From assembly GCA_020073085.1 (NCBI GenBank), contig JAIQFV010000008.1:124001-188000 (forward strand): a stretch of 64,000 bases of DNA. The letters run 5' to 3'. The notes beneath the pieces are model-generated. The model saw only the letters and a list, made by a program, of their open reading frames with translations. It was not told the DNA's origin and searched no databases. Positions 400 to 22,563 of this stretch are shown one piece after another. Origin of the DNA: Terriglobia bacterium (GTDB lineage: Bacteria; Acidobacteriota; Terriglobia; JAIQFV01). Within the stretch, counting starts at the first letter, position 1; every line of letters begins with the position of its first letter. The position numbers and the translations under genes were made by a program.

Positions 400-2190
400 A
401 TGCAATCCCGGAAAAGACAACGACAAAGCATGCTGGTGCTGGTGATCTTTCTGCTCGCCGTCTTTCTCGTCGTGTCCTACCGGTTTTACAAGGAAACCGA
501 AATCAAGGTGGCGGCCCAGTCGGGCGTTCAACAATGGTTGATTGCAGAAACGGCCGCGGCCGGGGTGGAAGGATATTTTGACACCATCTACAAGCGCCTG
601 GAAAAGGAATCCACCCTCCTGTCCACCCGGCCTGCGAACCAGCCGATTGCAGAGCATTCGCTCGACGCCCTCTATCTCGACTTGTCCTACCGGATTGCGG
701 GAGTCTACCTGCTGAACGACAAGTTCCAGATTGAAGTCTTCCGCTCCAACGATCCCCAACTACGCAATTTCGTCCCGCAGATTACGGGACCCTTGATGAC
801 CGCCCTGCTGCGGGGAGAACATGTGGTCGGTTCACCGGTCGCCACCAGCAATTACGAATACATCTTCGAGATCCTCGAACCGGTCCTCGACTCAGAAGGA
901 CACTTGAAGATGGCCCTGGGCGCCGCAGTTCCCCTCCGGAACCTGAGCTCTCTCTATCTCGACCCGTTAAACTCCACCAAAACCCACTACGCATGGATGC
1001 TGGATCAGAAAGGGATGCTTCTCTACAACCCTCGGCATCCCGAGATGCTCGGACACCAGATCCTCCAAAACCGCCAGGAGTGCTTCTCCTGCCACCTTAA
1101 TTTCGATACGGAAGAACGGATGGTGCGCGGGGACACCGGGACGGCAACAATCAAATTCAAGAACAAGGACCGGGACCTGGTCGCCTTTACACCGATCCGG
1201 ATGGGTAATCAGCATTGGTCGCTCGCCGTTTCGATCCCTTACACCGAGGCCACGGCACTCACGCGGGACAGTTTTCGCAATACGCTTCTCCTGGTCGCCT
1301 TCTTCTTCTCGATCATCATTGGAGGGGCACTGCTGGTCATGAACATGCATACCCGCAGCATCAAGGCCGAAGAGGAGGCACGGTTCACAAGACGCCAGGC
1401 GCAACTCGAGCGCCAGTTGCTGCAGTCAGAGCAGCTCGCGGGTATCGGCCGTATGACCTCCCAGATTGCCCACCAAATCAAGACGCCCCTCTCCGCCATC
1501 TCCCTGAATATCGAATATCTCGAAAAGGAAGTCCGGAAGCGCCTGCTTTCAAGCGGCGTCCCGGTGGGTGATGCTTCGCTGGAAGATCTCGAGAATGTCA
1601 CCGCTTCGGTCACGACCGAGATTCAGCGTCTCGCTGCATTGATCGAAGATTATTTGAAATTTGCGCGCCTTCCCAAACCGGCCTTTCATCCCGGTTCATT
1701 GACGGAAATGTTGGAAAGCCTGGCAGCGTTTTTGGAGAAGGAAATGGGAGACCGTCATATCCAGTTGAAGATGGACGCCGGGCCTCCCACCAGCACAGAG
1801 ACCCAGGACACTGACAAGATTCTGATGGACGAAAATCTTCTGTGGCAGGCCATAACCAACCTTATCCGCAACTCGGCCGAGGCTATGCCCTCCGGCGGTA
1901 CGATCACACTGAGCGTGAGATTCACCGACAACGACGTCGAATTCAAGATTTCGGACGAAGGGACCGGAATCCCGGAAGACAAGCTGCCTCATATTTTTGA
2001 TCCTTTCTTCACGACCAAGCCTGATGGAACGGGATTGGGACTCTCTTATGTCCAACGGATCATCGCCGAACATCACGCTTTCATCGCCTGTCAGAGCCGT
2101 CTGGGAGTGGGAACATCGTTCACGATCAACTTTCCCCGCTGGACGGACCAAATGCAGGAAGATGGAGTTTATGTTGATACTAAATCGTGA
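400..2190 (+). CDS. membrane sensor histidine kinase with periplasmic c-type heme motif
   Basis: 596 residues. Helix 1 is at about residues 9-26 (LVIFLLAVFLVVSYRF). A periplasmic sensor region of about 270 residues follows, then a second helix near 290-312 (LLLVAFFFSIIIGGALLV). The cytosolic part has a HisKA dimerisation helix with the H-box around H358 (AHQIKTPLS) and a HATPase_c domain with N box NLIRNSAEAM, G1 DEGTGIP, F box FDPFFTTK and G2 GTGLGLSYV. The sensor region contains C228-F-S-C231-H232, a covalent heme c attachment motif, so it probably senses redox state or a heme ligand. Motif and domains are seen; redox sensing is inferred. It lies between cytochrome genes, and the matching response regulator is probably the NtrC-type protein at 8219. 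GCGAGGAG lies upstream of the ATG. Confidence 0.93.
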   Translation: MQSRKRQRQSMLVLVIFLLAVFLVVSYRFYKETEIKVAAQSGVQQWLIAETAAAGVEGYFDTIYKRLEKESTLLSTRPANQPIAEHSLDALYLDLSYRIAGVYLLNDKFQIEVFRSNDPQLRNFVPQITGPLMTALLRGEHVVGSPVATSNYEYIFEILEPVLDSEGHLKMALGAAVPLRNLSSLYLDPLNSTKTHYAWMLDQKGMLLYNPRHPEMLGHQILQNRQECFSCHLNFDTEERMVRGDTGTATIKFKNKDRDLVAFTPIRMGNQHWSLAVSIPYTEATALTRDSFRNTLLLVAFFFSIIIGGALLVMNMHTRSIKAEEEARFTRRQAQLERQLLQSEQLAGIGRMTSQIAHQIKTPLSAISLNIEYLEKEVRKRLLSSGVPVGDASLEDLENVTASVTTEIQRLAALIEDYLKFARLPKPAFHPGSLTEMLESLAAFLEKEMGDRHIQLKMDAGPPTSTETQDTDKILMDENLLWQAITNLIRNSAEAMPSGGTITLSVRFTDNDVEFKISDEGTGIPEDKLPHIFDPFFTTKPDGTGLGLSYVQRIIAEHHAFIACQSRLGVGTSFTINFPRWTDQMQEDGVYVDTKS

Positions 2191-3289
2191 TTTAAATCCA
2201 CCGATTCGGGGAGCCCGCCGGCGTCGAATTCGGGAATGGGCCCCGAGACGATCCTGCACGAGGAGGGTTCTGCGACTTCTTCCCACAGTCCTTCTTCTTG
2301 GGACAGGTTTCTTCATGGCCTTGCCGGGTTTCTCGGCAGTTAATCCTGGATCCACCTCCGTGTCGCCGGATTGTTTGCTCTGTCATGCGAAATCAAAAAG
2401 CCCAGTCATCGAGGAGATGCTCAAGGACTCCGTCCACCAAGGGCTTGCTTGTACTGATTGTCATGCAGACATCCTGAGCGTTCCCCATGCGGAGAAACCT
2501 TCAGCCGTGGATTGTGGTTCCTGTCATGCCGCCGAATCGGCGGGATGGCACCAGAGCCCCCACGCGGTGAGACCGGGGGCGCCTACCTGCGCCGGCTGCC
2601 ATGGCACGCATTCCATTCATGCGATTCGACCCGGGAATAATTCCGTCATCAAGCTGCAAATTGCCCAGCTCTGCGAGAGATGTCACGACCAGCAGTTTGC
2701 GAGCTACAAGACCAGCGTGCATGCCCGGGCTTTGGAAAGAGGAGACGGAGAGGCGGCCACCTGCACCGATTGCCACGGCGGGCATGCCATCCAAGGCCCC
2801 GAATCCGCAGGCTCACCGGTGGCTCCTGCCTCAGTTTCCAGCACCTGCGGCAGCTGCCACGGCGACAAAAAGGCCATGGCAACGTCCGGACTCCCCACGG
2901 ACCGGGTCTCCACCTTCCGAAGCAGTTTTCACGCCGCGGCGCTGGGGATGGGCAACATGAAAGCAGCGACCTGCGCGTCTTGCCACGGCGCCCATGACAT
3001 CCTGGCTTCCGCCGATCCCGCCTCGCGTACCCATCCGGCCAATCTGCCGAAGACATGCAGTCATTGCCACGCCGGTGTGAAACAGGGCTTTGCCGGGGTC
3101 AGAATCCATGTTGACGTCAGCCCGACGGGGGCACGAGCGGCCTGGTTTGTCCGAGTCTTTTACATTCTATTTATTAGCATCCTGGTCCTGGGTTTCATCG
3201 TTCACATCCTCGCCGAGCGCTTGGGGGCATTGAGAAACAAGAAGAGGGCGCTCCGCGATGTCTCTTCTGGAAAGGAAGGTGTTGAATGA
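2171..3289 (+). CDS. nonaheme cytochrome c, membrane anchored
   Basis: About 372 residues. The frame stays open upstream inside the kinase gene. The ATG at 2171 is preferred over 2162 because GGAAGATGGAG lies just in front of it. An N-terminal hydrophobic stretch (LLPTVLLLGTGFFMALPG) serves as signal peptide or anchor. Nine CxxCH motifs follow (CLLCH, CTDCH, CGSCH, CAGCH, CERCH, CTDCH, CGSCH, CASCH, CSHCH), and a C-terminal helix (VFYILFISILVLGFIVHIL) leaves a short basic tail in the cytosol. The hemes therefore face the periplasm. The gene overlaps the next one by 4 bases (ATGA), so both products should be made together. Size and heme count match the c-type half of Geobacter CbcL, here as a separate polypeptide. 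Role as electron acceptor from the adjacent cytochrome b is inferred. Confidence 0.9.
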   Translation: MLILNRDLNPPIRGARRRRIREWAPRRSCTRRVLRLLPTVLLLGTGFFMALPGFSAVNPGSTSVSPDCLLCHAKSKSPVIEEMLKDSVHQGLACTDCHADILSVPHAEKPSAVDCGSCHAAESAGWHQSPHAVRPGAPTCAGCHGTHSIHAIRPGNNSVIKLQIAQLCERCHDQQFASYKTSVHARALERGDGEAATCTDCHGGHAIQGPESAGSPVAPASVSSTCGSCHGDKKAMATSGLPTDRVSTFRSSFHAAALGMGNMKAATCASCHGAHDILASADPASRTHPANLPKTCSHCHAGVKQGFAGVRIHVDVSPTGARAAWFVRVFYILFISILVLGFIVHILAERLGALRNKKRALRDVSSGKEGVE

Positions 3290-4014
3290 AGGCCAGAGAG
3301 GGACTCGAGAAGGATAACCGCGGGTCATTGGGACAACCTGCCGCCACAATCAGCCGCCTCACGTTATGGCAAAGGTGGGAGCACGGCCTGATGGCTCTTT
3401 CTGTCACATTACTCATCCTTTCAGGGCTGGCCCTGGCATACCACGAGCAGGCTTGGGCCCGATTATTGATCCGGCTCATGGGAGGGCTCGAGGGCCGTCA
3501 CTGGGTCCACCGAGCCTCCGCCATAGGGCTCCTGGTTGCAGGCTTGTTGCATTTCTCAGGGCTGATTCTCTCGGAGCGGCATCAACGTGATTTCCATGAG
3601 GTCAAGCCCCGGCTCAACGACTTCCGCGCCGCGTGGGGGGGGCTGAAATTTGCGTTTTCCGGAAGGGGTGAACCGCCTCCGTACGGTTGGTTTACTCCCA
3701 TGCAGAAGCTCCAATACTGGGGGGTGCTAATCGGATGTTTGTTAATGGGAGTCTCGGGAGCACTTTTGTGGAACCCCGTCATCACTTTGAATTCCTTCCC
3801 AAAGTGGGTGCTGGACATCATGCTGGTCCTCCATGCCACGGAGGCGCAGTTCATCTTTGTGCTCTTCATCCTCTGGCATCTCTATGACGTTCACCTGGCC
3901 GGAGGAAATTTCCCGATGAATCCCGCCTGGCTCACAGGAAAAATGTCGGAGGAACTCTTCGTCCGTCAACACCGCGCCTCTATGGAAAATGCTCGCTCCA
4001 AGGAGGAGGCATGA
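3286..4014 (+). CDS. diheme-type cytochrome b, HydC/FdnI-like
   Basis: 242 residues with four predicted helices: TLLILSGLALAYH, AIGLLVAGLLHFSGLI, GVLIGCLLMGVSGALLW, and ATEAQFIFVLFILWHLY. Candidate heme b ligands are the histidines of RWEHGLMAL, YHEQ, WVHRASAIG, LLHFSG and WHLYDVHLAGGNFP. The family (formate dehydrogenase gamma, Ni/Fe hydrogenase cytochrome b, thiosulfate reductase cytochrome b) takes electrons between a periplasmic partner and the quinone pool. ATG overlaps the stop of the nonaheme cytochrome (ATGA), with GGAAAGGAAGG as ribosome binding site. With no hydrogenase or formate dehydrogenase nearby, the partner is most likely the nonaheme cytochrome, giving a two-subunit quinol:cytochrome oxidoreductase (inference). 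Confidence 0.88.
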   Translation: MKAREGLEKDNRGSLGQPAATISRLTLWQRWEHGLMALSVTLLILSGLALAYHEQAWARLLIRLMGGLEGRHWVHRASAIGLLVAGLLHFSGLILSERHQRDFHEVKPRLNDFRAAWGGLKFAFSGRGEPPPYGWFTPMQKLQYWGVLIGCLLMGVSGALLWNPVITLNSFPKWVLDIMLVLHATEAQFIFVLFILWHLYDVHLAGGNFPMNPAWLTGKMSEELFVRQHRASMENARSKEEA

Positions 4015-5120
4015 CCCGCTCGTTCTATAAGCCTCTTGTCCTCGAAGCCGTGTTTGTCGTTCTCGGGATGACTTGGCTTGTGACCCCCTCCCGGGTCCGC
4101 GCTCAGGAAGACATTCGATGCCTCACCTGTCATGGCAAGCCCGGTTTCGAAAAGACCCTGCCCTCGGGCAAGAGGCTCGAGTTATTTGTAGATCCCATGC
4201 GTCTGCGTCTCTCCGTTCACAAAGACCGAAAGTGCGTCGACTGCCATGCCGATGTTACCGAGGTCCCGCACCCCGAGATTCCTCAGAAAGTGAATTGTGG
4301 ACGATGTCATTTCCTGGGCAACTCCGTAGGAGCCCCCCAGCTCGAAAGATACCTCGAGTACGGGACGAGCGTTCACGGGAAAGCCCTGGCCGAAGGGAAT
4401 CCCAAGGCCCCTGTTTGTCAGGACTGCCATGGTGACCATTTCATTCTCCCCGGCTCCGACCCACGTTCTCAAGTAAACCACAAAAGCATTCCTCAGACTT
4501 GCGGGGGATGTCATCTGGAAATATACGCCCAGTACCAGGAATCCGTGCATGGACAGGCCCTGATGAAGGGGGCCAAAGATGCCCCTGTATGTACCAACTG
4601 TCATGGAGAGCACAACATCCTGAAACCCCAGGACAAGACCTCCACCGTCAACCCGGGAACGGTGGTGAACACATGCTCCAAATGCCATGCCAAAGTCGTC
4701 ATCATGGAGAAATACGGCGTCAAGGCGGAGCAGGTGGCGACCTACCGCGAATCTTTCCACGGGATTGCCAACGAATTCGGGATGCTCAAGGCGGCCAATT
4801 GCGCCTCCTGCCACACGGCTCACCAGATTTATCCCGAGCAAGACCCCCGCTCAACGGTCAATTCAAAAAACATCCCGCTCACCTGCGGAAAATGTCACCC
4901 CGGGGCGAATGCCAACTTTGCCAAGGGACGAATCCATCTCAACCCCAAGGACAAATCGGCAGGAATCGTCTACTGGGTGGCCCTGGGCTTCAAGATCTTG
5001 ACTCTCTCGACGCTCGCCGGTCTCCTGATCCACATTGCCCTCGACCTCTATCGTCGGTTCAAGAACCGGGGGCAGGCGGGTGAACAGAAGGAAGTTGAAG
5101 TCGCGGAGAAGTCGCAATGA
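4011..5120 (+). CDS. nonaheme cytochrome c, membrane anchored (second copy)
   Basis: 369 residues. A signal peptide covers about residues 1-31 (LVLEAVFVVLGMTWLVTPSRVRA). Nine CxxCH sites follow (CLTCH, CVDCH, CGRCH, CQDCH, CGGCH, CTNCH, CSKCH, CASCH, CGKCH), then a C-terminal helix (VALGFKILTLSTLAGLLIHIAL) and a charged tail. The order and spacing of hemes, the HGxAL-like segments after each cluster and the closing GRIHL/RIHV segment before the anchor all parallel the protein at 2171, so the two are paralogues. Translation is coupled on both sides: GGAGGAGG then ATGA at the start, ATGA at the stop. It should be the periplasmic electron acceptor of the cytochrome b at 5117. Partner assignment is inferred from gene order. 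Confidence 0.92.
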   Translation: MTRSFYKPLVLEAVFVVLGMTWLVTPSRVRAQEDIRCLTCHGKPGFEKTLPSGKRLELFVDPMRLRLSVHKDRKCVDCHADVTEVPHPEIPQKVNCGRCHFLGNSVGAPQLERYLEYGTSVHGKALAEGNPKAPVCQDCHGDHFILPGSDPRSQVNHKSIPQTCGGCHLEIYAQYQESVHGQALMKGAKDAPVCTNCHGEHNILKPQDKTSTVNPGTVVNTCSKCHAKVVIMEKYGVKAEQVATYRESFHGIANEFGMLKAANCASCHTAHQIYPEQDPRSTVNSKNIPLTCGKCHPGANANFAKGRIHLNPKDKSAGIVYWVALGFKILTLSTLAGLLIHIALDLYRRFKNRGQAGEQKEVEVAEKSQ

Positions 5121-6166
5121 GTGAAGAGAAGAGAGTCCCCCTTGAAGACAGCCTCTGGGCCCGTCAAGACACGGCCGAGACGGCCGCCCGTTTGTCCCGA
5201 AGCATTTCTGATTCAGTGACGAAGGAATTACCGAAAGGCCTCACGGAACCGCAGTTCAAGCGCCTGAAAAAGGAACTTCTGGCCTCCCTCGAAAAGGAAA
5301 TGATCCTTGAAAGCCGGAGGGTCATCCGCCTCTTCCTGGAAGAGGAAGAGGCACAACAAAAGCATTTGGAGAAGAGGCGGAAGCGAAAGGCCCTCTTCGA
5401 AGAGTCCGTGGAGCGGATCAGTTTGAATCAGCGTGGCCAGCACATGATCTTACTCACCTGTACCCTGCTGCTGATCATCACCGGGCTGCCCATCAAGTTT
5501 CACGAGGCGCCCGCCGCTGAATTCATCATTCACCTCCTGGGCGGACCGAACATCACCCGTGTCCTGCATCGAATCGGCGCGATTGGGCTCACCATCGTTG
5601 GGCTCTATCATCTCTGGTACTGCATGGCCTTTGAAGAAGGGCGCCGGAATTTCGGGCTGTTGCTGCCGTCTCCGCGGGACCTCAAGGATTTTCTCCAACA
5701 GATGGGGTATTACCTCGGTCTCAAGAAAGACCGGCCGTTGTTTGATCGATTCTCGTACATCGAGAAATTTGACTATTGGGCGGTTTACTGGGGGATGGTG
5801 GTGATGATCACCTCGGGTTACATCCTGTGGTTCATGGAGACGGCCATCAACCAGTTCGGCAAGGTCGCCTATGACATTGCCCGGGAGGCCCATTCCGATG
5901 AAGGGTTACTGGCCACCCTCGCGATTATCATCTGGCATTTTTACAACGTCCATTTCAACCCCAAGAAATTTCCGGGAAGTCTGACGTGGTGGCATGGACG
6001 AATTCCGATTGAGGAATTCCGCGAAGAGCATCCGATCGAGTACGAGCGGTGGCTTGAAGCACAGAAACAAGAGGAGACTGAAATGGAGCAGGGATCCGAA
6101 GGGATTCCGGGTAGTCGATCGGTATCGGGCGGAAAAGAGAAGCCAGAGGGAGGAAGCTCCTCATGA
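5117..6166 (+). CDS. diheme-type cytochrome b with long charged N-terminal extension
   Basis: 349 residues. Residues 1 to about 95 form a charged, helical, probably coiled-coil cytosolic extension (for example KRLKKELLASLEKEM and FLEEEEAQQKHLEKRRKRK) that the paralogue at 3286 lacks. Four helices of the HydC/FdnI-like fold follow, with candidate ligands in RGQHMILL, IKFHEAP, VLHRIGAIG, LYHLWY and WHFYNVHFNPKKFP. The C-terminal tail EEFREEHPIEYERW is shared with the truncated protein at the window start. It overlaps the nonaheme gene before it and the large cytochrome after it by ATGA. Likely the membrane quinol-oxidising subunit of the second cytochrome b/c module. The extension might dock a cytosolic partner; nothing in the sequence identifies one. 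Confidence 0.9.
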   Translation: MSEEKRVPLEDSLWARQDTAETAARLSRSISDSVTKELPKGLTEPQFKRLKKELLASLEKEMILESRRVIRLFLEEEEAQQKHLEKRRKRKALFEESVERISLNQRGQHMILLTCTLLLIITGLPIKFHEAPAAEFIIHLLGGPNITRVLHRIGAIGLTIVGLYHLWYCMAFEEGRRNFGLLLPSPRDLKDFLQQMGYYLGLKKDRPLFDRFSYIEKFDYWAVYWGMVVMITSGYILWFMETAINQFGKVAYDIAREAHSDEGLLATLAIIIWHFYNVHFNPKKFPGSLTWWHGRIPIEEFREEHPIEYERWLEAQKQEETEMEQGSEGIPGSRSVSGGKEKPEGGSSS

Positions 6167-8202
6167 CCCGCCGGAACCTCCGCCTGTTCGCCTTGCTGGG
6201 CCTCACGGCAATCGTTGTCCTTTCGGGCTGGTTCTTTGTGGATGTGACCGCCCGCCGCTCTTCCTTTTGCAGCAACTGCCACTACATGCAGCCTTATGTG
6301 GATCAATGGAGAAGCTCGACGCACAAGAATGTCGCCTGTGTGCAATGTCATCCCACCACACGCCGCGCCATGTTTGGTCAATTCATCAAAAACGTGACGA
6401 GGACTTACAATCCACGGCCTCGGGCCTACGTGCCCGATGAAGCCTGCGCCTCCTCAGGCTGCCACGCCGGGATGCCCAAGAGCACAGCGGTCAAGTTCCT
6501 GACGGTCACCTTCCCCCACCAACCTCATTTGGGGGTCGACCGCCGAGGGATCAGACTGCATTGTGCCTCCTGCCACGGGGCCTCCAACGAGGCCGGCCAT
6601 GTCTCGGTGGACAAACGCATCTGTTACCTCTGCCATTTCAAAGGACAGCCGGTGGAGGGAACTTTAACGTGGTGCGGGTCGTGTCACGGCGCCCCGACAG
6701 GGATGAGCCAGCATGCCGGGTTTATCTTTGACATGAAGGCATACGCCGCTTCCGGGGTGCAGTGCAGCCGATGCCATGTCGCGGTGCATGAGGGCCTGGG
6801 CGAAGTGTCTAGGGACAAGTGTTTCAGTTGCCACGTTTCACGGGTTGAAGCCATCTCGAACCCCAAAGCACTCCACGACAACCATGTCGGTGATCAACAG
6901 ATCCGGTGCATGGAGTGCCATGAGCCGATCCGCCATGGGAACATCAAAATTCTTTCAGTTCTTGATGTCTCCTGCGAATCCTGCCATCCAAACCTTCATG
7001 CCGGGCCGAAGGAGACCTATCTGGGTGTCGGCGCAAGAGAGGTCCCCGCCACCCCCAGTCGGATGTTTGCGGCTCAGATCAAATGCACGGGCTGCCACAC
7101 TCAAGTGATCGTCCGAGGGGGGGTGTCATTCCTCAGTCAGGGGAACAAAACCGCGAACCCAAAGGCTTGCGCTGCCTGTCATGACGCCCGGTTCATTCCC
7201 ATGGTGGAACGGTGGAAATCTCAAGGTAAAGTCTTAATGACGGAAGCTCGCCGCCTTTCGAATGAAGGGAGAATCCTCGCGGCTCGGGCCCCGTCCAACC
7301 CCGACGTCCAAAAGACCTCCTCCGACCTGGATTTCAACGCGAATTTTTTGGAGCAGGGTCATCCTGTTCATAACATCGAATACGGAATCCGAATTGTTCA
7401 AACGAACTCGGAACTCCTCAAGAAGCTGACTGAAAGCGTTAAAGTGCCGTCCACGGCTGCCAGTGTACAGCCCGCTTTTGCCAGAGGTCCGTTCACCTAC
7501 TGTAACGAATCGTGCCACACCTTCATTCCCAGAAAGGAACCCTATAATTTCAAGGGAGTCGATTTCCCCCACACGTATCACGTGCAGAAGGCTGCCCTCC
7601 CTTGCGATACCTGTCACAAGGAGAATCATCATAAGGAGTTGAGTCTGACGGGCCCCCCCGACTGTGCTTCGTGCCATCATGCCAGCGCCAAAGTCGACTG
7701 TGCGCGTTGTCATGCATCACAAGCGGCATTCTTCGGCGGAAAACTTCCACCTCATCTGAACGTGACGGCCAAGCCGGATGCCATGTCGGGGATCGTCGGC
7801 TGCGTCGACTGTCATGACCCCACTAAACCGGACCCACTGAAGGAGGTCTCCAAGGCTTGCGAGGCCTGTCATGAAGGAAAAGGCGCAAAGGATCTCGAAA
7901 GCTGGCGCCGGCAGTTGCAGGAGGAAGTAGGGAAAGTGCGTCTCCTCTCTGAAGAAAACAGCATGCTGTTGAACGGGTTCGAACGCCGGGGGGTCGGAGT
8001 TGCCTTATACCGAACCAGGCTGGAAGCGGCACGTGCACGCCTGGATTACCTCGAGAAGGCAAAGGGTGTCCATAACATGGTCGCGGCCAGAGCCATCCTG
8101 GAGAGAATCAAGCAGGAACTCACCGCACTGCTTTCTGAAGCCAACCGGATCGCCGCCCCAGCCCCGGCAAAGAAGAAGGAAAACCAATCCAAGAACGACT
8201 GA
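6163..8202 (+). CDS. large NapC-like multiheme cytochrome c, up to 18 hemes
   Basis: 679 residues. A single N-terminal helix (LFALLGLTAIVVLSGWFFVDV) is followed at once by CSNCHYMQP, which is the NapC/NirT/NrfH arrangement for a quinol-facing first heme. Sixteen standard CxxCH motifs can be counted, plus CASSGCH (CX4CH, about residue 96) and CNESCH (CX3CH, about residue 447), giving up to 18 sites. The last 115 residues have no heme motif and are helical (SWRRQLQEEVGKVRLL and later LEAARARLDYLEKAKG). A similar heme-free helical tail ends the nonaheme protein at 22564. The gene starts inside the stop of the cytochrome b gene (ATGA) with GGAGGAAG in front. Probably a periplasmic electron conduit or reductase; the substrate cannot be told from sequence. 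Confidence 0.88.
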   Translation: MTRRNLRLFALLGLTAIVVLSGWFFVDVTARRSSFCSNCHYMQPYVDQWRSSTHKNVACVQCHPTTRRAMFGQFIKNVTRTYNPRPRAYVPDEACASSGCHAGMPKSTAVKFLTVTFPHQPHLGVDRRGIRLHCASCHGASNEAGHVSVDKRICYLCHFKGQPVEGTLTWCGSCHGAPTGMSQHAGFIFDMKAYAASGVQCSRCHVAVHEGLGEVSRDKCFSCHVSRVEAISNPKALHDNHVGDQQIRCMECHEPIRHGNIKILSVLDVSCESCHPNLHAGPKETYLGVGAREVPATPSRMFAAQIKCTGCHTQVIVRGGVSFLSQGNKTANPKACAACHDARFIPMVERWKSQGKVLMTEARRLSNEGRILAARAPSNPDVQKTSSDLDFNANFLEQGHPVHNIEYGIRIVQTNSELLKKLTESVKVPSTAASVQPAFARGPFTYCNESCHTFIPRKEPYNFKGVDFPHTYHVQKAALPCDTCHKENHHKELSLTGPPDCASCHHASAKVDCARCHASQAAFFGGKLPPHLNVTAKPDAMSGIVGCVDCHDPTKPDPLKEVSKACEACHEGKGAKDLESWRRQLQEEVGKVRLLSEENSMLLNGFERRGVGVALYRTRLEAARARLDYLEKAKGVHNMVAARAILERIKQELTALLSEANRIAAPAPAKKKENQSKND

Positions 8203-8218: not shown

Positions 8219-9646
8219 ATGTTGAAGCCCAATCGTGAAACCACCATACTGATCATTGACGATGAAAAACCGATCCGCGAATCCCTCCATCGCACCCTTC
8301 GCCAGGAGGAATACCAGGTGAGGCTGGCCGAAAATGGCGACCAGGGACTGCGTTTTCTTGAAGCCGAACGGATTGATCTGGCGGTCGTCGACATGGTCCT
8401 TCCTGACTGGAACGGGGTCGATCTGCTGAAAAAGATTAAGAGCGAGTGGCCCGAAGTTGAAGTCGTCCTGGTGACGGCTTACGGCACGATTGAGACAGCC
8501 GTCGAGGCGATGAAATACGGGGCCTATGACTTTTTGACGAAACCCTTCAAACAGGCCCAGATTCTGAACGCCATCAAGAAGGCCCTGGAAAAGTTTGAAC
8601 TCGAAAAAGAAAACCGTCTGCTCAAGGAACAATTAAGCGAGCAGACGATCAATCGTAAGCTGGTCGGCAGCTCCCCTGAAATGATGCGGCTGAAGAAGAT
8701 GATCCAGCAGGTCGCCCCCAGTTCCGCCACCGTCTTTATTCAGGGGGAAAGCGGGACCGGCAAGGAGATCGTGGCGGAAACGATTCATTACTTGAGCGCG
8801 CGCGCTGACCGCCCGGTGGTCAAGGTGAATTGTGCCGCCCTGCCGGAGACGTTGCTGGAGGCGGAATTGTTTGGATACGAGAAAGGCGCCTTCACGGGAG
8901 CCTTTGCCCGCAAGGAAGGCCGCTTCGACCTCGCTCGGGGCGGGACGCTCTTCCTGGATGAAATCGGCGACATGCCCCTGGCCACACAAGTCAAACTCCT
9001 GCGGGTGTTGCAGGACGGCACTTACGAACGGCTCGGGGGGACGGAAACTCTCGATGCCGATGTCCGCATTATCGCTGCAACCCACCACGATCTCGAGCAA
9101 GACGTCAAGGCAAAGCGCTTTCGGGAGGATCTTTATTACCGCATCAACGTCATTGCGTTGAAGATTCCCCCGCTCCGTGAACGCACGGACGAGATCCCGA
9201 TCCTGGCGAACCATTTCCTGAAAATCTACTCGACGAAGAACGGGAAAAAGGTCACCGGCTTCACGGAATCAGCCATCAACGCCCTGACCGGCTACGAGTG
9301 GCCAGGAAATGTGAGGCAGCTCGAAAACGTGGTGGAACGGGCTGTCGTTTTGACGGAAACCGAGGTGATCACTCCGGCGGTTCTTCCCCGGGAGATTTCC
9401 GGGGTCAAATCTCAAATTGAGTTGGAATCCAACCGAGCCCCGGTGTTGACCATTTCCTTTCCCATTGGGACTTCGATGGACGACATCGAAAACCGCGTCA
9501 TCCATTCCATCCTCGAGTACACCCAAGGCAACAAACAACGGGCCGCCCAACTGCTCAACCTGGCAAGCAAGACCATTCACCGGCGTCTTGTCGCTGAAAA
9601 CTCCACGGAGGGGGCGGAGGCAGATGCGGCCGAAGACTCTCCCTGA
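8219..9646 (+). CDS. NtrC-family sigma-54 activator (response regulator)
   Basis: 475 residues from ATG 8219. Receiver domain at residues 8-125 with acidic pocket D14/D15, phospho-acceptor D58 (VVDMVLPDWNG), T in VTAYG and K in TKPF. AAA+ domain at about 145-385 with Walker A GESGTGKE, the sigma-54 contact loop GAFTGA, Walker B GGTLFLDEIGD and the R-finger region. The C-terminal Fis-type helix-turn-helix is within GNKQRAAQLLNLASKTIHRR. It activates transcription only from -24/-12 promoters with sigma-54. It ends the cytochrome operon that contains the heme-bearing histidine kinase, so the two probably form one two-component system. Candidate targets in this window are the sigma-54-like promoters at 15341 and 19060. 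The frame stays open upstream into the cytochrome gene, but similarity to the family begins here. Confidence 0.95.
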   Translation: MLKPNRETTILIIDDEKPIRESLHRTLRQEEYQVRLAENGDQGLRFLEAERIDLAVVDMVLPDWNGVDLLKKIKSEWPEVEVVLVTAYGTIETAVEAMKYGAYDFLTKPFKQAQILNAIKKALEKFELEKENRLLKEQLSEQTINRKLVGSSPEMMRLKKMIQQVAPSSATVFIQGESGTGKEIVAETIHYLSARADRPVVKVNCAALPETLLEAELFGYEKGAFTGAFARKEGRFDLARGGTLFLDEIGDMPLATQVKLLRVLQDGTYERLGGTETLDADVRIIAATHHDLEQDVKAKRFREDLYYRINVIALKIPPLRERTDEIPILANHFLKIYSTKNGKKVTGFTESAINALTGYEWPGNVRQLENVVERAVVLTETEVITPAVLPREISGVKSQIELESNRAPVLTISFPIGTSMDDIENRVIHSILEYTQGNKQRAAQLLNLASKTIHRRLVAENSTEGAEADAAEDSP

Positions 9647-9770: not shown

Positions 9771-11108
9771 CTATTCAACGACGTCCTTTAGACCCGAGGT
9801 CCAGTCCTGTACTGTCTTGCTCGGCAACCGGAACACCGTGCGGGAGCTTCGAATCCACACCGAATCCTTTTCGGACTTGCTGAACCGGATCTCGGATTGA
9901 TGATTGGACCGATCCACCAGGGTCACGCGCACCGCGGGTTTGAAAAACAGGCCGACCTTCTCCAGGCTCGCAGGGGGATCCAGAATCTCGTCCGCCTTCA
10001 TCTCCTCCAGTGGTAACCAGAATTTCCAATCTCGCGCTTGCTTTCCAGCCAGAGTCTTCGGAAGGACTACCTTCCATTTGGAATCCTTTGTATCCTCCCT
10101 GTCAAATTCATAGACGCTGTTTTCCAACTGGATCAGGACATGTTGAAGGTCGGCCGCCTTTGTGGTGATGATCTGCTTGTCACGGAGCTTAAACACGACA
10201 GGCCGGATCTTATCGGCGACAATGGTAGTGATCTTAAAGATTGCAGAAGACCCCTCAAGCCTGGCATACACCTGGTCATCTTTTCTTGCGCCCAGCAAGA
10301 GTTTCTTTTGCTTCGCCTGGCTTCCCTCCCTTTCCGTAAGGGTCAAAGTCCCCGCCGGAGGATCCAACTCGAAACTCTTCAGAGTGGATTCAGGCTTGTC
10401 TACAAATTCAGAGGCTTCACTGCTTGAAGCATCATTGAGGTAAGAAGAAATTCCGCTCGGATCACCCCGTGCGGACACAGGTTGGATCAGGTTCCATTCC
10501 GTCCCTGACTTCCGTGCGCTGAAGTGTTCCCCGTTGGAGACAAAATCTATCTGGGTGACCTTCTCGGGATCCACCTCCATGATCCTGCGATCACGAAGTT
10601 GCATCAACGACTTGTCCAATGAGGAGAAAAGGTAGGAAGAAACGAGGACCACATCAGCCCGGGACGAGGTTCGCGCGTAGACATTGTTCTCCGAGAAATC
10701 CTTCTCGCCCAGATCCACTGAGAACGAAGTCCCCGGCCGGGTTTTGAATTCGGTGTGGATCTTTGGTGGCTGAAGACCATACTCAGAGAGGTTCTGCGCG
10801 CCGGCCACGGAGTGGGTGCTCGTGGCGGAGGAGAGGTTGCGAACAATCTCATTGACGACCGTCTGATCGGCCGGGGCTGAGACGGGCGACTCAATCACCC
10901 ATCGGCTATTCTGTTGTTCAAGAATCGTTTTTTCACTGCCGCGTTGGATCAGCAGTGAAGCGACGGCCTCGTCTTTGACATCAAAGAGCTTCTCTGCCTT
11001 TTGCCTGGCCTGCTCGCGATTTGCTTCTCCCCGGAACTCATAAAAATATACAAATCCACCGAGCCCGGCGAGGATCACGACTCCAATGATCAGATTGCGC
11101 CATTTCAT
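9771..11108 (-). CDS. DUF4340-like protein of Gld-type ABC cluster
   Basis: 445 residues from the ATG at 11108, chosen because GGGAAGGA precedes it and a membrane helix starts right after (LIIGVVILAGLGGFVYFY). The remainder is extracytoplasmic, rich in beta-strand-like segments, with internal duplication: phrases of the type LLIQRGSEKTILEQQNSRW, IDFVSNGEHFSARKSGTEW and VLIQLENSVYEFDREDTKD recur. This is the pattern of DUF4340 proteins, which are found at the end of GldA/GldF/GldG-type ABC operons. The molecular role is unknown; an accessory or scaffold part of the exporter is the usual guess. It is separated from the gldG-like gene by a 286-bp spacer filled with heptad repeats, which is unusual for this otherwise tight operon. 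Confidence 0.8.
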   Translation of the reverse strand: MKWRNLIIGVVILAGLGGFVYFYEFRGEANREQARQKAEKLFDVKDEAVASLLIQRGSEKTILEQQNSRWVIESPVSAPADQTVVNEIVRNLSSATSTHSVAGAQNLSEYGLQPPKIHTEFKTRPGTSFSVDLGEKDFSENNVYARTSSRADVVLVSSYLFSSLDKSLMQLRDRRIMEVDPEKVTQIDFVSNGEHFSARKSGTEWNLIQPVSARGDPSGISSYLNDASSSEASEFVDKPESTLKSFELDPPAGTLTLTEREGSQAKQKKLLLGARKDDQVYARLEGSSAIFKITTIVADKIRPVVFKLRDKQIITTKAADLQHVLIQLENSVYEFDREDTKDSKWKVVLPKTLAGKQARDWKFWLPLEEMKADEILDPPASLEKVGLFFKPAVRVTLVDRSNHQSEIRFSKSEKDSVWIRSSRTVFRLPSKTVQDWTSGLKDVVE

Positions 11109-11149
11109 CAATGCAGTCCTTCCCTTTAAGATAACCTGGAAAGAGGGAT

Positions 11150-11394
11150 TAGGTGATAGGTGATTGGGAATAGGCAACACGGGATGGTGATAGGAAGCAA
11201 GGGCAAAGCAAACCAGATGGTAGCGGGAGTGGGGTTTTCAGATTCCCCGCGCCGAACCGCGGGCAGGATCAACATTGGAAACATTCTCATCCTGCCGACT
11301 GCCACGATCCTGTGATTCCTCGCACCTCCCTGACACCTAACGCCCGTCACCTATTCCCTATCCCCTATTCCCTATCACCTAATACCTATCCCCG
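11150..11394. repeat. inverted pair of TAGGTGA-type heptad repeats
   Basis: The left arm (11150-11177) reads as in-phase 7-mers TAGGTGA, TAGGTGA, TTGGGAA, TAGGCAA. The right arm (about 11331-11394), read on the minus strand, gives TAGGTAT, TAGGTGA, TAGGGAA, TAGGGGA, TAGGGAA, TAGGTGA, CGGGCGT, TAGGTGT. The arms face each other and can pair over about 23 bases with three mismatches, leaving roughly 150 bases between them. The right arm ends at the stop codon of the gldG-like gene, so the element lies within the operon spacer. A second element of the same design is at 20760-20982. Confidence 0.75.
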
Positions 11395-12948
11395 TCACTT
11401 CCTCCGTCGTGCCCAGACCATGGCGCCCGTCAGAAGCGCCGAGGCGGGCAGCACAATAATGATGAACCAGAACAACAACTGGCCGGTTGAAGCGGAGAGT
11501 TCCACACGGCGGTTGTCGGCATTCCTTGGCCGGATCGACACGAGGTCCTCATCCTCGGCCAGCCAGCTGACCGAATTCAGGAAAAGATCCCCATTGCGCT
11601 GAAGCCGAAAAAACTCATTCGAGGCAAATCGCGAATTCCCGATGACCTCGACTCGCGCCTCCTTGGTCCGCGTCGATTGCTCTTTCGATCCAGCGGCCGA
11701 CCGGGTGGAGACGACGGCCAGGGAGAGCGGCCCTTCGAGGTCCTTGCCCTTATCGAATTTCAGAGGCCTCTCATTGAGGTTGCTTTCACCCCAACTGTTC
11801 GTCGAAGTTTTGAACAATGGGGCGGATGAGAAATCCGATTTTGTATCGGCCACGCGAACGGAGCGAGCCAGCGGGAAGATGGTCATGGTTCTTCCAAAGT
11901 CCTTCACGATGGGTTGATTCTCATACTCGGTCACAATGGGCGCCGCCGGTCCCATCCCGAGGAGCTGTCCAATCCCACTGGCGTCCACGACGGCATCATT
12001 ATCGACCTGGATCTTCCATTTTTCGAACTCGCGGGTCAGCCCGGGATCGGTGTCCGGATCCACGAGCACCAGAACCTTCCCTCCCGCCTCGACATACTGA
12101 TTGATCTCATCCGCTTCGGGTTGAAACAGCGAGTATTTCGGACCGGCAATGACAAGCACGGTACAATCCGGGGGAACGGATTTGGATTGGGTCAAGTTTA
12201 TCGGTTTCACTTCATAACCCTGATCTTCAAGGCCTTTCTTTGCCCCCGAAAACCCGGGCCCGCCGGCTGAAGTGATTGACGCCTCCCCATGGCCTTCGGT
12301 GAAATAGATGGTGCGCTTTTTGCGGTGCGTCAACTTGACGATGGCATTCGTCAAGTCTTCCTCCGCCGGATTGGTGACCAGCTGTTTCTGGTCGGGGTTA
12401 TTGCCTGACAGGACAACGATCGTCGGCAGGGAGCGCACGCTGTATTGGCGGGCTTGCGCCAGGTATTTTTCAGCGTCCAAAAACTCGTACTTGATCCGGG
12501 ATGACTGCGCCTGGTATTCACGGATCAGGTCTCGAACCGGATGCGATTCGGTCTGATCGAAATAAATCAATCGCACGTCGCTGTCGAGATTCTTTAGCAC
12601 CTTAATCGTCTGTTCGGAGATGCTGAAGAGCTTGTTCGTGGTGAGGTCGTACCGTTTATGATGCCGGGAGCCCAGAAAATTAATGAGGCCGAGGATGGTC
12701 AGAAAAACCGCCACGGTGGCCAGCGTATTGGCCCCGTACTGAGTGGATCGGTGTTGCCAGCCGGCCAGTAGTTCCCGGTAATGGAAAACCAGATGAAATA
12801 TCAAAAGCGCCCCGCCGACACCGGACGTCGTCCACACGGTCCAGTCGAAGACGGAATGAGCGGAATAGAGAACCGCCCCCAGGGCCAGGATCAGCAGGCC
12901 GAGCCCTCCGGCCGGCTTGCTCAGACGCTTCACAAGGGGATCAGCCAT
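11395..12948 (-). CDS. GldG-like ABC transport auxiliary protein
   Basis: 517 residues. Two helices come first (GLGLLILALGAVLYSAHSVF; GALLIFHLVFHYRELL), a third helix follows at about 72-92 (TLATVAVFLTILGLINFLG), then a large extracytoplasmic domain and a closing helix (LLFWFIIIVLPASALLTGA) with a basic end. The domain has the GldG/IFT52-like features DLTTNKLFSISEQTIKVLKNLDSDVRLIYF near its start (residues about 104-133) and ILVLVDPD-like and VLVIAGP segments later. In Bacteroidetes GldG works with GldA and GldF in gliding; in other phyla the same trio is common without gliding. Its start lies 3 bases after the permease stop. Predicted accessory subunit of the ABC-2 exporter. Confidence 0.85.
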   Translation of the reverse strand: MADPLVKRLSKPAGGLGLLILALGAVLYSAHSVFDWTVWTTSGVGGALLIFHLVFHYRELLAGWQHRSTQYGANTLATVAVFLTILGLINFLGSRHHKRYDLTTNKLFSISEQTIKVLKNLDSDVRLIYFDQTESHPVRDLIREYQAQSSRIKYEFLDAEKYLAQARQYSVRSLPTIVVLSGNNPDQKQLVTNPAEEDLTNAIVKLTHRKKRTIYFTEGHGEASITSAGGPGFSGAKKGLEDQGYEVKPINLTQSKSVPPDCTVLVIAGPKYSLFQPEADEINQYVEAGGKVLVLVDPDTDPGLTREFEKWKIQVDNDAVVDASGIGQLLGMGPAAPIVTEYENQPIVKDFGRTMTIFPLARSVRVADTKSDFSSAPLFKTSTNSWGESNLNERPLKFDKGKDLEGPLSLAVVSTRSAAGSKEQSTRTKEARVEVIGNSRFASNEFFRLQRNGDLFLNSVSWLAEDEDLVSIRPRNADNRRVELSASTGQLLFWFIIIVLPASALLTGAMVWARRRK

Positions 12949-12951
12949 GCG

Positions 12952-13740
12952 CTATTGCCTCCATCTCATCGATTCGAACGATCGCAGGGTTAACAGCAAT
13001 GCGAATGCCGTGAAACTCAAATAGAAAATGATGTGGGTGGTGTCAATCACCCCTTTCGAAAAATCATCAAAATGATTCAGGACTGAAAGATAGCTCAGCA
13101 CGTCCCCCAACTTGGAATCGCCGGAATGGGTGGCAAAGTCCAACACCCAGAGGATCAGAAACACTCCGAAGGTACTGACCGACGCAATTATCTGGTTCTC
13201 GGTCAGGGTCGAAATGAATGCCCCCAGGGCGATCAGGGAGCCTCCCAGCAGCAGGACGCCCAGGTATCCACTGAAAACAGGAGCCCAAGGGAACCGGGGC
13301 TGGCTGTAGGCCTGCATCAGCAGAAAGTAAAGCAGGGTCGGCGCGAGCATTGACATGAAAAAAGCCACGGAAGCCAGAAATTTTCCGAGCACAATTTGGA
13401 CGCTCGTCAAGGGGGACGTCAGTAACAATTCGATGGTCCCCTGTTTCTTCTCCTCCGTAAACAAACCCATGGTGGTCATAGGGAGCATGAACAAGAGGAT
13501 CGTGGAGAGGGTTTCAAAGAAATTCCGGGTCACCACCGACGGTACGTCAATGGGCGGCATCCCTCCACCAAATTGCTGGGATTGCATCGCCGCCATCATG
13601 GAATTCTGAACGATCAACCTGAGGATATTGTAGAAAAAGAACCCCATCACCAACAGAAAGATGGTGCTGACGACATAGGCAATCGGGGACACAAAATAGT
13701 TCGAATACTCCCGCTCTAAAATTGCCCAGATGTTCTTCAT
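12952..13740 (-). CDS. ABC-2 type permease, GldF-like
   Basis: 262 residues from ATG 13740; the upstream codons to 13773 lack family similarity and a site GAAGAGGAGCAC lies just before this ATG. Six hydrophobic segments are visible, including YVVSTIFLLVMGFFFY, LSTILLFMLPMTTMGLF, FLASVAFFMSMLAPTLLYFL, VLLLGGSLIALGAFIS and ASVSTFGVFLILWVLDFA. The cytosolic loop EEKKQGTIELLLTSPLTSVQIVLGK (positions about 101-125) is the conserved coupling segment of ABC-2 permeases such as GldF and NosY. It should form the membrane channel of the exporter with the ATPase encoded upstream. Substrate unknown. Confidence 0.88.
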   Translation of the reverse strand: MKNIWAILEREYSNYFVSPIAYVVSTIFLLVMGFFFYNILRLIVQNSMMAAMQSQQFGGGMPPIDVPSVVTRNFFETLSTILLFMLPMTTMGLFTEEKKQGTIELLLTSPLTSVQIVLGKFLASVAFFMSMLAPTLLYFLLMQAYSQPRFPWAPVFSGYLGVLLLGGSLIALGAFISTLTENQIIASVSTFGVFLILWVLDFATHSGDSKLGDVLSYLSVLNHFDDFSKGVIDTTHIIFYLSFTAFALLLTLRSFESMRWRQ

Positions 13741-13817
13741 GTGCTCCTCTTCCCTCCCTTTCCGGCACCGCAATTTCCCAATGCTCTGTTACCGGGCTGT
13801 GACCCCGGTCCCGCCTG

Positions 13818-14849
13818 TCATGACTCCGGCGCATCCGCCTCGCCGGTCTCGGCATCTGGCGCAGGCGGAGCCTCCGAGGCCGCATCCATTTCCTGCTCGG
13901 AGGTGGTGAGTTGCAGGAAGATATCTTCCAGACTCATTGACACCGGACGCAACGACCATAACTCCGCGCCACTCTCCAGCACCGCCCGGGCCACTGCGTT
14001 TCTTACGGAGCGATCTGTCGAAACCTCCAGCGTTAATTCGTGCGCTCCACCCCCGTTCAACGGCTTCGAGGCCATCTCGAGGACTCCGGGAAGGGATAGA
14101 ATACGACTTTTGACCGCATCGAGCTGCCCCTTGATCTCCACAATCAGGCGGTCCCCTCCCCGCAGCTGGAGCGTCAGATTCTCCGGGGTGTCCTCGGCAA
14201 CGATCTTTCCCTTGTTAATGATGACGACCCGGTGGCAGGTCATGGAGACTTCGGGGAGAATGTGAGTGGAGAGGATGACCGTATGGGTTCCGGCCAGGCT
14301 CTTGATCAACTCGCGCACTTCAATAATCTGTTTGGGATCCAACCCCACGGTCGGTTCATCCAGGATGAGAATCCTGGGATCATGAATCAAGGCCTGCGCC
14401 AGTCCCACGCGTTGACGGTACCCCTTGGAGAGGTGCTTGATCAGCCGGTGGCGATAATCCCCGCCATCCTGCGGAGCGTCCACCAGACGGCATTTCGCGA
14501 GAATCTCTTCCACTCTGCGGGGACGGTCGGCCGCAGAGATTCCTTTTATTTTTGCCACAAAGTGAAGGTAACCTTCCACCGTCATTTCACCATAAAGGGG
14601 AGGGTTCTCGGGGAGATACCCGATGAGACGGCGCGTGTCAAGCGATTGCGTGAGAATGTCGAGTCCTTCAATTCGCGCTGTCCCGGCCGTGGGAGGAATG
14701 TAGCCCGTCAAGATCCTCATGGTCGTGGTCTTCCCTGCCGCATTGGGACCGAGAAACCCCAGGATCTCCCCGTCCTTCACATCAAAGGAAATATCGATCA
14801 CAGCGTCTTTTGTGCCGTAACGTTTGGAGATATGATCCACTTCAATCAC
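13818..14849 (-). CDS. ABC transporter ATP-binding protein, GldA-like
   Basis: 343 residues. Walker A is GPNAAGKTTT, Q-loop region GYLPENPPLYGEMTV, signature LSKGYRQRVGLAQ, Walker B ILILDEPTVGLD and H-loop ILSTHILPEV. The first 230 residues are a standard ABC domain. The C-terminal 110 residues are a DrrA/GldA-like extension ending in an acidic, Ala-rich tail (SEAPPAPDAETGEADAPES). It is the first gene of the minus-strand operon ATPase-permease-GldG-DUF4340. It powers export by the ABC-2 permease at 12952. The divergent 552-bp region upstream separates it from the second respiratory locus. Confidence 0.93.
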   Translation of the reverse strand: MIEVDHISKRYGTKDAVIDISFDVKDGEILGFLGPNAAGKTTTMRILTGYIPPTAGTARIEGLDILTQSLDTRRLIGYLPENPPLYGEMTVEGYLHFVAKIKGISAADRPRRVEEILAKCRLVDAPQDGGDYRHRLIKHLSKGYRQRVGLAQALIHDPRILILDEPTVGLDPKQIIEVRELIKSLAGTHTVILSTHILPEVSMTCHRVVIINKGKIVAEDTPENLTLQLRGGDRLIVEIKGQLDAVKSRILSLPGVLEMASKPLNGGGAHELTLEVSTDRSVRNAVARAVLESGAELWSLRPVSMSLEDIFLQLTTSEQEMDAASEAPPAPDAETGEADAPES

Positions 14850-15803: not shown

Positions 15804-15887
15804 GCCCCGGGATCGTTTTATTCCTCTGTACTGGGGATTCGTGGAAGCAACCGGATGCCCAGAGGTCAAAATAGAAAGGACAAACCC

Positions 15888-16619
15888 ATGGTTGCAATCT
15901 TCGTAGTCCTGACCATCATCGCCTTCCTTTTAGTCGATTACGTTGTGCAGAGGGTCCAGGCACGACGAGCAAGTTCAGGCACGCCATCCCCCAAGGCCTT
16001 GGCCCCGGAGGTGAATCCGGGTGAAGCCTTTGTGCGCCTGGGGGATTCAATTGCCGTGCCCGCCGCCTTTTTCTTTCACCGCGGACATACCTGGATCAGG
16101 TTCTCCTCTCCTAACCGTGCCCGGGTCGGGCTGGACGATTTCGCCCAGAGGGTTCTGGGTCGCATTGAGGCCATCCAATTCCCCCGGATCGGGGAACTGA
16201 TTCGCCAGGGCGATCCCATCTTCATGGTTCGCGTGGGTGATCGCAAGCTTTTCCTTCCTGCCCCGAGCGATGGCATTGTGACCCATATCAACACCGATTT
16301 GGCCGCGACACCCGGTGCGGTTCATGTCAGTCCGTTTGAAAGCGGTTGGGTCTGCGAAATGAAGCCTGAGAACGTCTCGCAGAACGTTTCCGAGCTGCTG
16401 TCGGGAGAGGACGCCGTGCAGTGGGAATTGCACGAGCTGAACCGCTTACAGAAATTCATCGCCGACCGGAAGGATGGAAACCCGGTCGCCACTACGGAAG
16501 AGTTCTCCTTGGGTCGTCCCTGGGCTGCGGAGTGCGCGCCGAAGGTCTTGAACGAATTCTCGAAGTCGTTTTTTACTCTCGATCTTGAACACAGCGAGCT
16601 TGTGACGGAGGTTTCTTAA
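15888..16619 (+). CDS. membrane-anchored GcvH-like protein lacking the lipoyl lysine
   Basis: 243 residues from ATG 15888 (AAAGGA seven bases upstream). Helix at about 2-21 (AIFVVLTIIAFLLVDYVVQ), linker, then a GcvH fold at about 60-165. HRGHTWIRF matches the HEWIR entry of true GcvH, and VGLDDFAQRVLGRIEAIQFP matches [20 protein letters not shown] of the gcvH product at 38457. The lipoylation segment differs: VGDRKLFLPAPSDGIV replaces ESVKAVSEIYCPVAGEV, and the modified lysine aligns with Arg or a gap. It therefore cannot be a normal glycine cleavage carrier. The C-terminal 75 residues have no known match. The gene ends 1 base before the ferredoxin gene, so it probably belongs to that redox complex. 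Role unknown. Confidence 0.8.
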   Translation: MVAIFVVLTIIAFLLVDYVVQRVQARRASSGTPSPKALAPEVNPGEAFVRLGDSIAVPAAFFFHRGHTWIRFSSPNRARVGLDDFAQRVLGRIEAIQFPRIGELIRQGDPIFMVRVGDRKLFLPAPSDGIVTHINTDLAATPGAVHVSPFESGWVCEMKPENVSQNVSELLSGEDAVQWELHELNRLQKFIADRKDGNPVATTEEFSLGRPWAAECAPKVLNEFSKSFFTLDLEHSELVTEVS

Positions 16620-16620
16620 C

Positions 16621-17373
16621 ATGTCAAAAGGACTCCTCATCGATATCACAAAATGCATTGGCTGCCGTTCGTGCGAGGCGGCATGCAAGGCACAGAATAA
16701 ACTCCCCGAAAACAATGATTCTGATTTGACAGCCACCACCTATACCAAGGTGATGGAGCGCGGGGATCATTTTGTTCGCAAGATGTGCATGCACTGCCAG
16801 AACCCGACCTGCGTTTCGGTTTGTCCGGTGGGGGCCCTGCAAAAAACGAGCTACGGGCCGGTGGTCTACGACGAATCCAAGTGCATGGGCTGCCGCTACT
16901 GCATGGCGGCTTGCCCGTTCCAGGTTCCGCGCTACGAATGGTCGAGCGCGTTTCCCCGCGTGCGGAAATGCATCATGTGCAAGGACCGGGTCGCCCAGGG
17001 TCTGCAAACCGCTTGCGCCGAAGCTTGTCCTGTGGGGGCCACAACGTTCGGTGAGCGGGATGACCTCATCCACGAGGCCCAGGACCGGATTCGCCAGGAG
17101 CCGGGAAAGTACGTCAACCAGGTTTACGGTTTCTCGGAAGTGGGGGGAACCGGCGTTTTGTTCATCACTGACGTTCCCTTCGAAAAGCTCGGGTTCCGGA
17201 CCGACTTGTTGAAGGAGCCCTATCCGATGCTGACCTGGAACGTCCTCTCAAAAATCCCCAATTTGGTGGGGGTGGGTGCGACGCTGCTCTTTGGAATTTG
17301 GTGGATTACCAGCCGCCGGGAAGAAGTGAAAAAAGAAGAGGCGGAAGCGAAGGCCCAGAACGATAAAATCTAG
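16621..17373 (+). CDS. 4x[4Fe-4S] ferredoxin subunit with C-terminal anchor (HybA/DmsB-like)
   Basis: 250 residues. Four cysteine clusters total 16 Cys: CIGCRSCEAAC, CMHCQNPTCVSVCP, CMGCRYCMAACP and CIMCKDRVAQGLQTACAEACP, the pattern of DmsB/HybA/PsrB electron-transfer subunits. The C-terminus has a helix (IPNLVGVGATLLFGIWWIT) followed by a charged tail, as in HybA. No Tat signal is seen at the N-terminus (MSKGLLIDITKCIGC), so the clusters could sit on the cytosolic side. The next gene encodes the NrfD/HybB membrane partner. Together they would move electrons between the quinone pool and Fe-S clusters. No molybdopterin or hydrogenase catalytic subunit is present nearby. Confidence 0.9.
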   Translation: MSKGLLIDITKCIGCRSCEAACKAQNKLPENNDSDLTATTYTKVMERGDHFVRKMCMHCQNPTCVSVCPVGALQKTSYGPVVYDESKCMGCRYCMAACPFQVPRYEWSSAFPRVRKCIMCKDRVAQGLQTACAEACPVGATTFGERDDLIHEAQDRIRQEPGKYVNQVYGFSEVGGTGVLFITDVPFEKLGFRTDLLKEPYPMLTWNVLSKIPNLVGVGATLLFGIWWITSRREEVKKEEAEAKAQNDKI

Positions 17374-17459
17374 AGACACCCTCGGGGCCGGCGGATGAAG
17401 TGTCGGATGAGAGTTCACGCGACCGACACCATATCGCTCCTCGACGAAAGGAAACAGCT

Positions 17460-18677: not shown

Positions 18678-19257
18678 ACGTGGCGGAAACCCCGGGGCTG
18701 CCGAAGGACACAAGTTTGGCCAGGCTCCACACCGAGTTCCGTCACTCTTTCCTCGTTGGGTGATGGACGCTCACCTCCAATTAGCCCTCTGCATGGAGGA
18801 GAGCCTGGCCAATAAAAAATCCCCCTTCCCCATCGCTCCCTCCCCAAAAGATCAAGAATTCAGCTTTATTCGCGGTCCTTTCGGGCACTTTCCTCACCCA
18901 CCTGTTTTTCGCTCAAGGCTAAGCTCATCCGGAAGTGCAACACTCCAATGCAACGGTACCATAGCAATTCAACACTTTTGGCTTTGCCTGAACCGTGTTT
19001 GTTTGTATCATTCGACCTAAGATCAAGCACTTAAGAGTTTGGAATCGGGTTGGAAGTTTTGGCGTACCAGTTGCTGTCGTCCTCACCTGCGGCTTCTCAC
19101 AAGAGCTAAGCGCGGCGACTGTGAAATAAGATTGCGGAGCTGCAGAGTTTACATCGACTTCCTTCACCCGCTTGAGACAAGTGGATATTGCCAGAGAACG
19201 GATCGCCTTGCGGGTGTAAGGAGTATTTCTTTCTCGAAGAAGGGCTTTCATAAATCC
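18678..19257 (+). other. 580-bp spacer with promoter and leader of the second respiratory block
   Basis: No credible gene is seen on the plus strand. A long minus-strand frame at 18925-19806 runs through the 5' half of the cytochrome gene and looks like a shadow. The region contains a -24/-12 promoter match at 19060-19074. If it is used, the transcript has a leader of about 170 bases before the ATG at 19258. Confidence 0.5.
19060..19074 (+). promoter_or_regulatory. candidate sigma-54 (-24/-12) promoter
   Basis: TGGCGTACCAGTTGC matches the sigma-54 consensus TGGCAC-N5-TTGC at TGGC and TTGC with the exact 15-base span. The start site would be near 19085. It precedes the NapC-Rieske-cytochrome b-nonaheme block. 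No close copy of the 15190/15231 palindromes was found upstream. Confidence 0.5.
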
Positions 19258-20757: not shown

Positions 20758-20759
20758 AC

Positions 20760-20982: not shown

Positions 20983-21000
20983 GAACCACGGAGGCGTTTC

Positions 21001-21462: not shown

Positions 21463-21464
21463 TC

Positions 21465-22562: not shown

Positions 22563-22563
22563 C

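Follow-up and report, generated by a model that had tools for sequence, protein, structure and literature searches.

The kinase and its cytochrome cluster

The window, a stretch of 64,000 nucleotides from the genome of a soil acidobacterium of the Terriglobia (contig JAIQFV010000008.1, positions 124,001 to 188,000), opens on the plus strand with the 3' end (1-233) of a gene that begins upstream and encodes a CbcL-like fusion of an 11-heme cytochrome c to cytochrome b561 (L058:13098-15233). It is followed on the same strand by an open frame at 400-2190, whose 596-residue translation is a sensor histidine kinase with the order TM1, putative periplasmic dCache domain, TM2, HisKA, HATPase_c. Hydropathy places TM1 at about residues 8-30 (421-489) and TM2 at about residues 292-316 (1273-1347), and Pfam assigns the kinase core (1447-2139) to HisKA at residues 350-424 and HATPase_c at 477-580. 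No match to a HAMP domain was found in this protein.

The initial annotation had set the kinase in a cytochrome operon, and the downstream genes, all on the plus strand, agree with that description. They comprise two pairs, each of a 9-CxxCH multiheme cytochrome c and a cytochrome b561-like membrane protein, namely 2174-3289 (with a C-terminal membrane anchor and an uncertain start codon) with 3286-4014 (PF01292), and 4011-5120 with 5117-6166 (identified by Pfam). After these come a 16-CxxCH multiheme cytochrome with a NapC/NirT-like N-terminus (6163-8202) and an NtrC-type sigma-54 response regulator with receiver, AAA+ and Fis-type HTH domains (8222-9646). Upstream of the window, the cluster continues with a DmsE/MtrA-family decaheme cytochrome, two 5-CxxCH cytochromes, a C_GCAxxG_C_C protein, a cation efflux protein and the 11-heme/b561 fusion, together with a 675-residue protein that weakly matches the GSU2204 family of NCBIfam. 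The same upstream part encodes ResB and CcsB, the System II apparatus for c-type heme attachment. Convergent with the regulator gene, the minus strand at 9771-14849 encodes an ABC transporter with partners that by eye appear GldG-like and DUF4340-like. A second respiratory cluster, also read by eye, lies at 15855-23841 and comprises GcvH-like, 4Fe-4S ferredoxin, NrfD/HybB-like, multiheme NapC/NrfH-like and cytochrome b6-like proteins.

A heme c motif in a probable double-Cache sensor

The translation, hydropathy and Pfam assignments place the sequence C228-F-S-C231-H232 (1081-1095, plus strand) between the two membrane helices and outside the cytoplasmic core, as the initial annotation had it. 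Its codons and its conservation mark it as a heme-c attachment motif, with H232 the expected proximal ligand, and the periplasmic part has no cysteine other than C228 and C231. When a CxxCH lies in an extracytoplasmic domain and the cell has a maturation system, it usually carries heme c with the histidine as proximal ligand. The sixth ligand of the iron may come from nearby H213-P-E-M216 (1036-1047, plus strand), whose histidine and methionine are invariant in 14 aligned members of the family and absent from canonical dCache relatives.

The periplasmic domain matches dCache_1 (PF02743) over residues 47-278 in Pfam hmmscan, weakly, at 28-30 bits and so below the cutoff of 45, and a paralogue in the same genome (L002) scores 47.4 bits, above that cutoff. 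The second module of the window kinase aligns with canonical dCache members, and the family profile weakly matches the second module of the solved dCache structure 4wy9 (E 0.019). By these sequence comparisons, the kinase is probably a sensor of the double-Cache (dCache) type. The canonical alignment, the PF02743 match and the 4wy9 profile match together delimit a membrane-proximal module at about residues 184-280 (949-1239, plus strand) that carries the heme motif. Strands in the window kinase were assigned by homology to the Cache fold; aligned with canonical dCache members, the CxxCH falls after the second strand of the module (GMLLYNP) and before the helix that precedes the third. AlphaFold models of the sensor (335 residues, pLDDT 40) and of the membrane-proximal module (136 residues, pLDDT 43), each built from three input sequences, were unusable.

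When the periplasmic domain was shuffled, a CxxCH arose in 40 of 200,000 trials (2e-4). Stronger evidence that the motif is not a chance occurrence is its conservation in all 14 aligned homologues, every one of which carries the signature H-x2-M-x11-C-x2-C-H at constant spacing and with no variation in length. The invariant columns of this alignment are G205, H213, M216, C228, C231, H232, G247 and W273; they cluster in the membrane-proximal module, and the distal module is present, variable in sequence and poorly conserved. The closest homologues, G001 (95% identity over the sensor and its helices) and G002 (73%), are orthologues in the same gene context, which is where absence of the motif had been expected to tell against it; both retain the CxxCH. 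Contig C16 of the window's own genome encodes a more distant homologue, a second kinase, and others occur in G011 and in several further families of Acidobacteriota.

A profile search of 396 sampled Acidobacteriota genomes separated the family clearly: matches with the heme motif scored at least 263 bits, and the next matches no more than 119. The full heme form was present in 6 of the 396 and is therefore rare. Among the lower-scoring dCache matches whose loci were read, CxxCH was absent from all but one divergent member, and nine canonical dCache sequences that were aligned have neither CxxCH nor H..M. The divergent member (L044, in G087) has its CxxCH at residue 243 of the frame, LYDSARSAAVLSEIRAGDASCGSCH, and lacks the H-x2-M element. 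HxxM ligation is thus not universal; L044 may be an open-site variant, or possibly a sign that HxxM is not a ligand. In one tree, a weakly supported branch (64/45; 70% of bootstraps) has all heme-bearing rows to the same side of it; the heme form may have arisen once. We found no relatives in plasmids and none in viral contigs, where the DNA-pattern matches resemble chance.

The family also includes several longer orphan or hybrid kinases, in the window's genome (G000), G147 and others, that are encoded away from cytochrome genes; the sensor is thus not bound to one type of operon. The second heme-dCache protein of the window's genome (L060:9275-13492, contig C16) is about 1400 residues long, with a kinase box and, by eye, apparent PAS-type repeats, and its neighbourhood is without cytochromes.

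Comparison with known heme c sensors

The comparison gave no support for kinship with the Geobacter heme-c 'PAS' sensors, to which the initial annotation had likened the window kinase: they belong to DUF3365/Tll0287, from which it differs both by profile and in the position of the motif. DUF3365/Tll0287 (PF11845) has been renamed sCache_heme, a single Cache domain with covalent heme c in which the CxxCH is an insertion between the beta-3 and beta-4 strands, and a 2026 preprint describes it as the first Cache domain known to bind a cofactor covalently (PMC12889525). No PF11845 match was found in the window kinase by hmmscan at E 1, nor elsewhere in the window's genome, and profile-profile alignment (hhalign) of the window family with DUF3365 gave a probability of 15%. 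In 17 DUF3365 domains from other Acidobacteriota, the CxxCH follows a strand that ends in P-I/L/V and has one strand after it, whereas in the window family three strands come after it. These 17 domains were chosen by that strand pattern and so illustrate the motif position rather than test it independently, and the description in the preprint agrees with them. We rejected membership of the window kinase in sCache_heme on the absence of PF11845 and the different position of the motif. Judged from the sequence register, its CxxCH was likely acquired independently of sCache_heme.

With sCache_heme sensors (GSU0582, GSU0935, Tll0287 and the P. azotoformans sensor), the window protein shares an extracytoplasmic sensor of the Cache superfamily that has a single CxxCH and serves kinases and chemoreceptors. 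They differ in that sCache_heme is a single Cache with the CxxCH before the last strand, whereas the window protein is probably a double Cache whose motif, in the membrane-proximal module, has three strands after it. With canonical dCache_1 domains (PF02743; for example, the chemoreceptor domain of PDB 4wy9), the window family appears to share the two-module architecture and the register of the membrane-proximal module; unlike it, the aligned relatives that lack CxxCH also lack H..M. To our knowledge, the known canonical dCache members bind free small molecules and carry no covalent cofactor. DcrA from Desulfovibrio vulgaris, a membrane signal transducer, has a heme-c domain in the periplasm, and redox potential or oxygen is its presumed input (PMC8396549); compared by description, it shares this layout with the window protein, but it is a chemotaxis transducer and not a kinase. 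The literature searched yielded no description of a heme-c dCache domain, although such a search does not prove absence.

The probable partner regulator and the signal it may carry

We searched three distant genomes, G011, G200 and G147, with the window's regulator; the top match, out of 14, 12 and 8 near-full-length candidates listed, respectively, was in every case encoded next to a heme-dCache kinase. The chance expectation for all three top matches doing so is about 7e-4. This pattern across three genomes makes it probable, by comparative genomics, that the kinase at 400-2190 and the sigma-54 regulator at 8222-9646 are a cognate pair despite the five genes between them. A HisKA and HATPase_c kinase with a partner sigma-54 regulator constitutes an NtrC-type two-component sensor, and phosphotransfer between the two is predicted. 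In G147 and G200, the heme-dCache kinase is followed directly by the regulator and then by a decaheme MtrA and an MtrB/PioB porin; in G011, the kinase and regulator are adjacent on a contig without a cytochrome gene. The G147 kinase beside MtrA/MtrB (L024 and L081, contig C44) has one in-frame TAG in its sensor, just before ILDRNG, which may be a sequencing error, a mark of a pseudogene or a readthrough codon.

Candidate sigma-54 promoters were scored in bits with a rough matrix. In G011, a sigma-54-like site, TGGCAGGGTGATTGCA (L071:4691-4706, minus strand), scores 16.6 bits, with a plausible start for the heme-dCache kinase about 46 bp downstream of it. A weak site (12.2 bits) before the window cluster is conserved in G001 and was not found in G002, and a conserved sigma-54 promoter for this cluster was therefore set aside. 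The arrangement of a sigma-54 regulator beside inner-membrane genes for multiheme c-type and b-type proteins is shared with NtrC-type regulators of bc-cytochrome genes, such as BccR of the Geobacter CbcBA system. We know of no heme-bearing partner kinase for CbcBA/BccR.

The heme form also tends to occur in genomes with electron conduits. MtrB/PioB was found in 76 of the 396 sampled Acidobacteriota genomes and in five of the six that have the full heme form, an enrichment with a hypergeometric p of 0.001 (0.004 when the divergent G087 is counted) in a calculation that ignores kinship. A DmsE-family decaheme cytochrome was present at E 1e-30 or better in all ten heme-dCache genomes searched, and above the curated cutoff in nine of them, again with kinship ignored. 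The branch that includes the window kinase sits by envelope electron-transfer genes and probably switches them, with the heme sensing either the redox state or a gas.

Between these two inputs we lean toward redox: it seems rather probable to us that a periplasm-facing, heme-c dCache kinase reads the redox state of the envelope and acts through the regulator at 8222-9646 on the extracellular-electron-transfer cluster. The System II proteins of the cluster would attach heme to C228 and C231; H232 would be its proximal ligand and M216, or else H213, the distal one. The heme would be reduced or oxidised by the adjacent multiheme cytochromes or by quinol-linked b/c proteins, and in that sense the sensor might read electron flow directly, as the initial annotation supposed. 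A change in heme coordination would then move the membrane-proximal Cache module and shift TM2, altering autophosphorylation, and the phosphate would pass to the sigma-54 regulator, which would switch its presumed target promoters in the surrounding cluster. Redox-linked changes of heme ligand have been reported for GSU0582 and GSU0935 (-156 and -251 mV). In GSU0935, either water or Met60 is seen opposite the histidine, and the oxidised state of such sensors is presumed to be the active one (PMC8396549). On this analogy, the distal ligand in the window kinase is likely M216 or H213, and redox-driven ligand exchange in the module next to TM2 the likely trigger.

The main rival to redox sensing, which also fits the sequence, is that the heme-c dCache domain is a gas sensor, chiefly for NO, which would displace the distal ligand so that the kinase answers nitrosative or denitrification conditions rather than electron flow. 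Precedents exist among other heme-c sensors: the signalling-fused sCache_heme of P. azotoformans binds NO, releases it slowly and forms no stable complex with O2 (PMC12889525), and the Geobacter sensors bind NO and CO with displacement of Met60 (PMC8396549). The G087 variant, without HxxM, might likewise have an open site. However, the window kinase is not a DUF3365 protein, and the NO sensor of P. azotoformans is without the axial Cys that its redox-type relatives have, whereas the window family retains His and Met at fixed spacing. The genes around it encode electron-transfer cytochromes and, in relatives, MtrAB, and no NO-metabolism gene was recognised there. We regard NO sensing as unlikely, though a serious contender.

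Less credible still is a heme that is attached but serves a structural or electron-transfer role, the signal being an ordinary small ligand bound in the membrane-distal Cache module. Sensors of the dCache type can bind ligands in either module, and the distal one is present here, if variable; but the heme motif lies in the membrane-proximal module next to TM2, in the stretch that leads, in canonical dCache proteins, from the second strand to the helix after it, and it is in this module that the invariant residues are concentrated. We consider this reading improbable, and more remote again is that the CxxCH binds no heme at all and forms a disulfide or a zinc site, or is an accident of composition. 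A single CxxCH can occur in proteins that are not cytochromes, yet the shuffled domains seldom produced one, and the motif is invariant, with its co-conserved H and M, in members from several Acidobacteriota families. Moreover, it faces the compartment in which System II attaches heme c, and genes for that system are part of the cluster.

Returning to the redox reading, we put forward, tentatively and with somewhat less than even confidence, that the Cache superfamily acquired heme c twice, the second time independently of sCache_heme and in a dCache family marked by H-x2-M-x11-C-x2-C-H, one branch of which, with its sigma-54 regulator, is a dedicated redox gauge of extracellular electron conduits. 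If so, a second heme-c Cache family with its motif elsewhere in the fold would mean that Cache sensors took up heme more than once, and the kinase would directly address the question of how bacteria monitor the chains that carry their electrons out of the cell. Both points, repeated heme uptake and chain sensing, can be tested with small constructs, given the signature and the pairing with a regulator.
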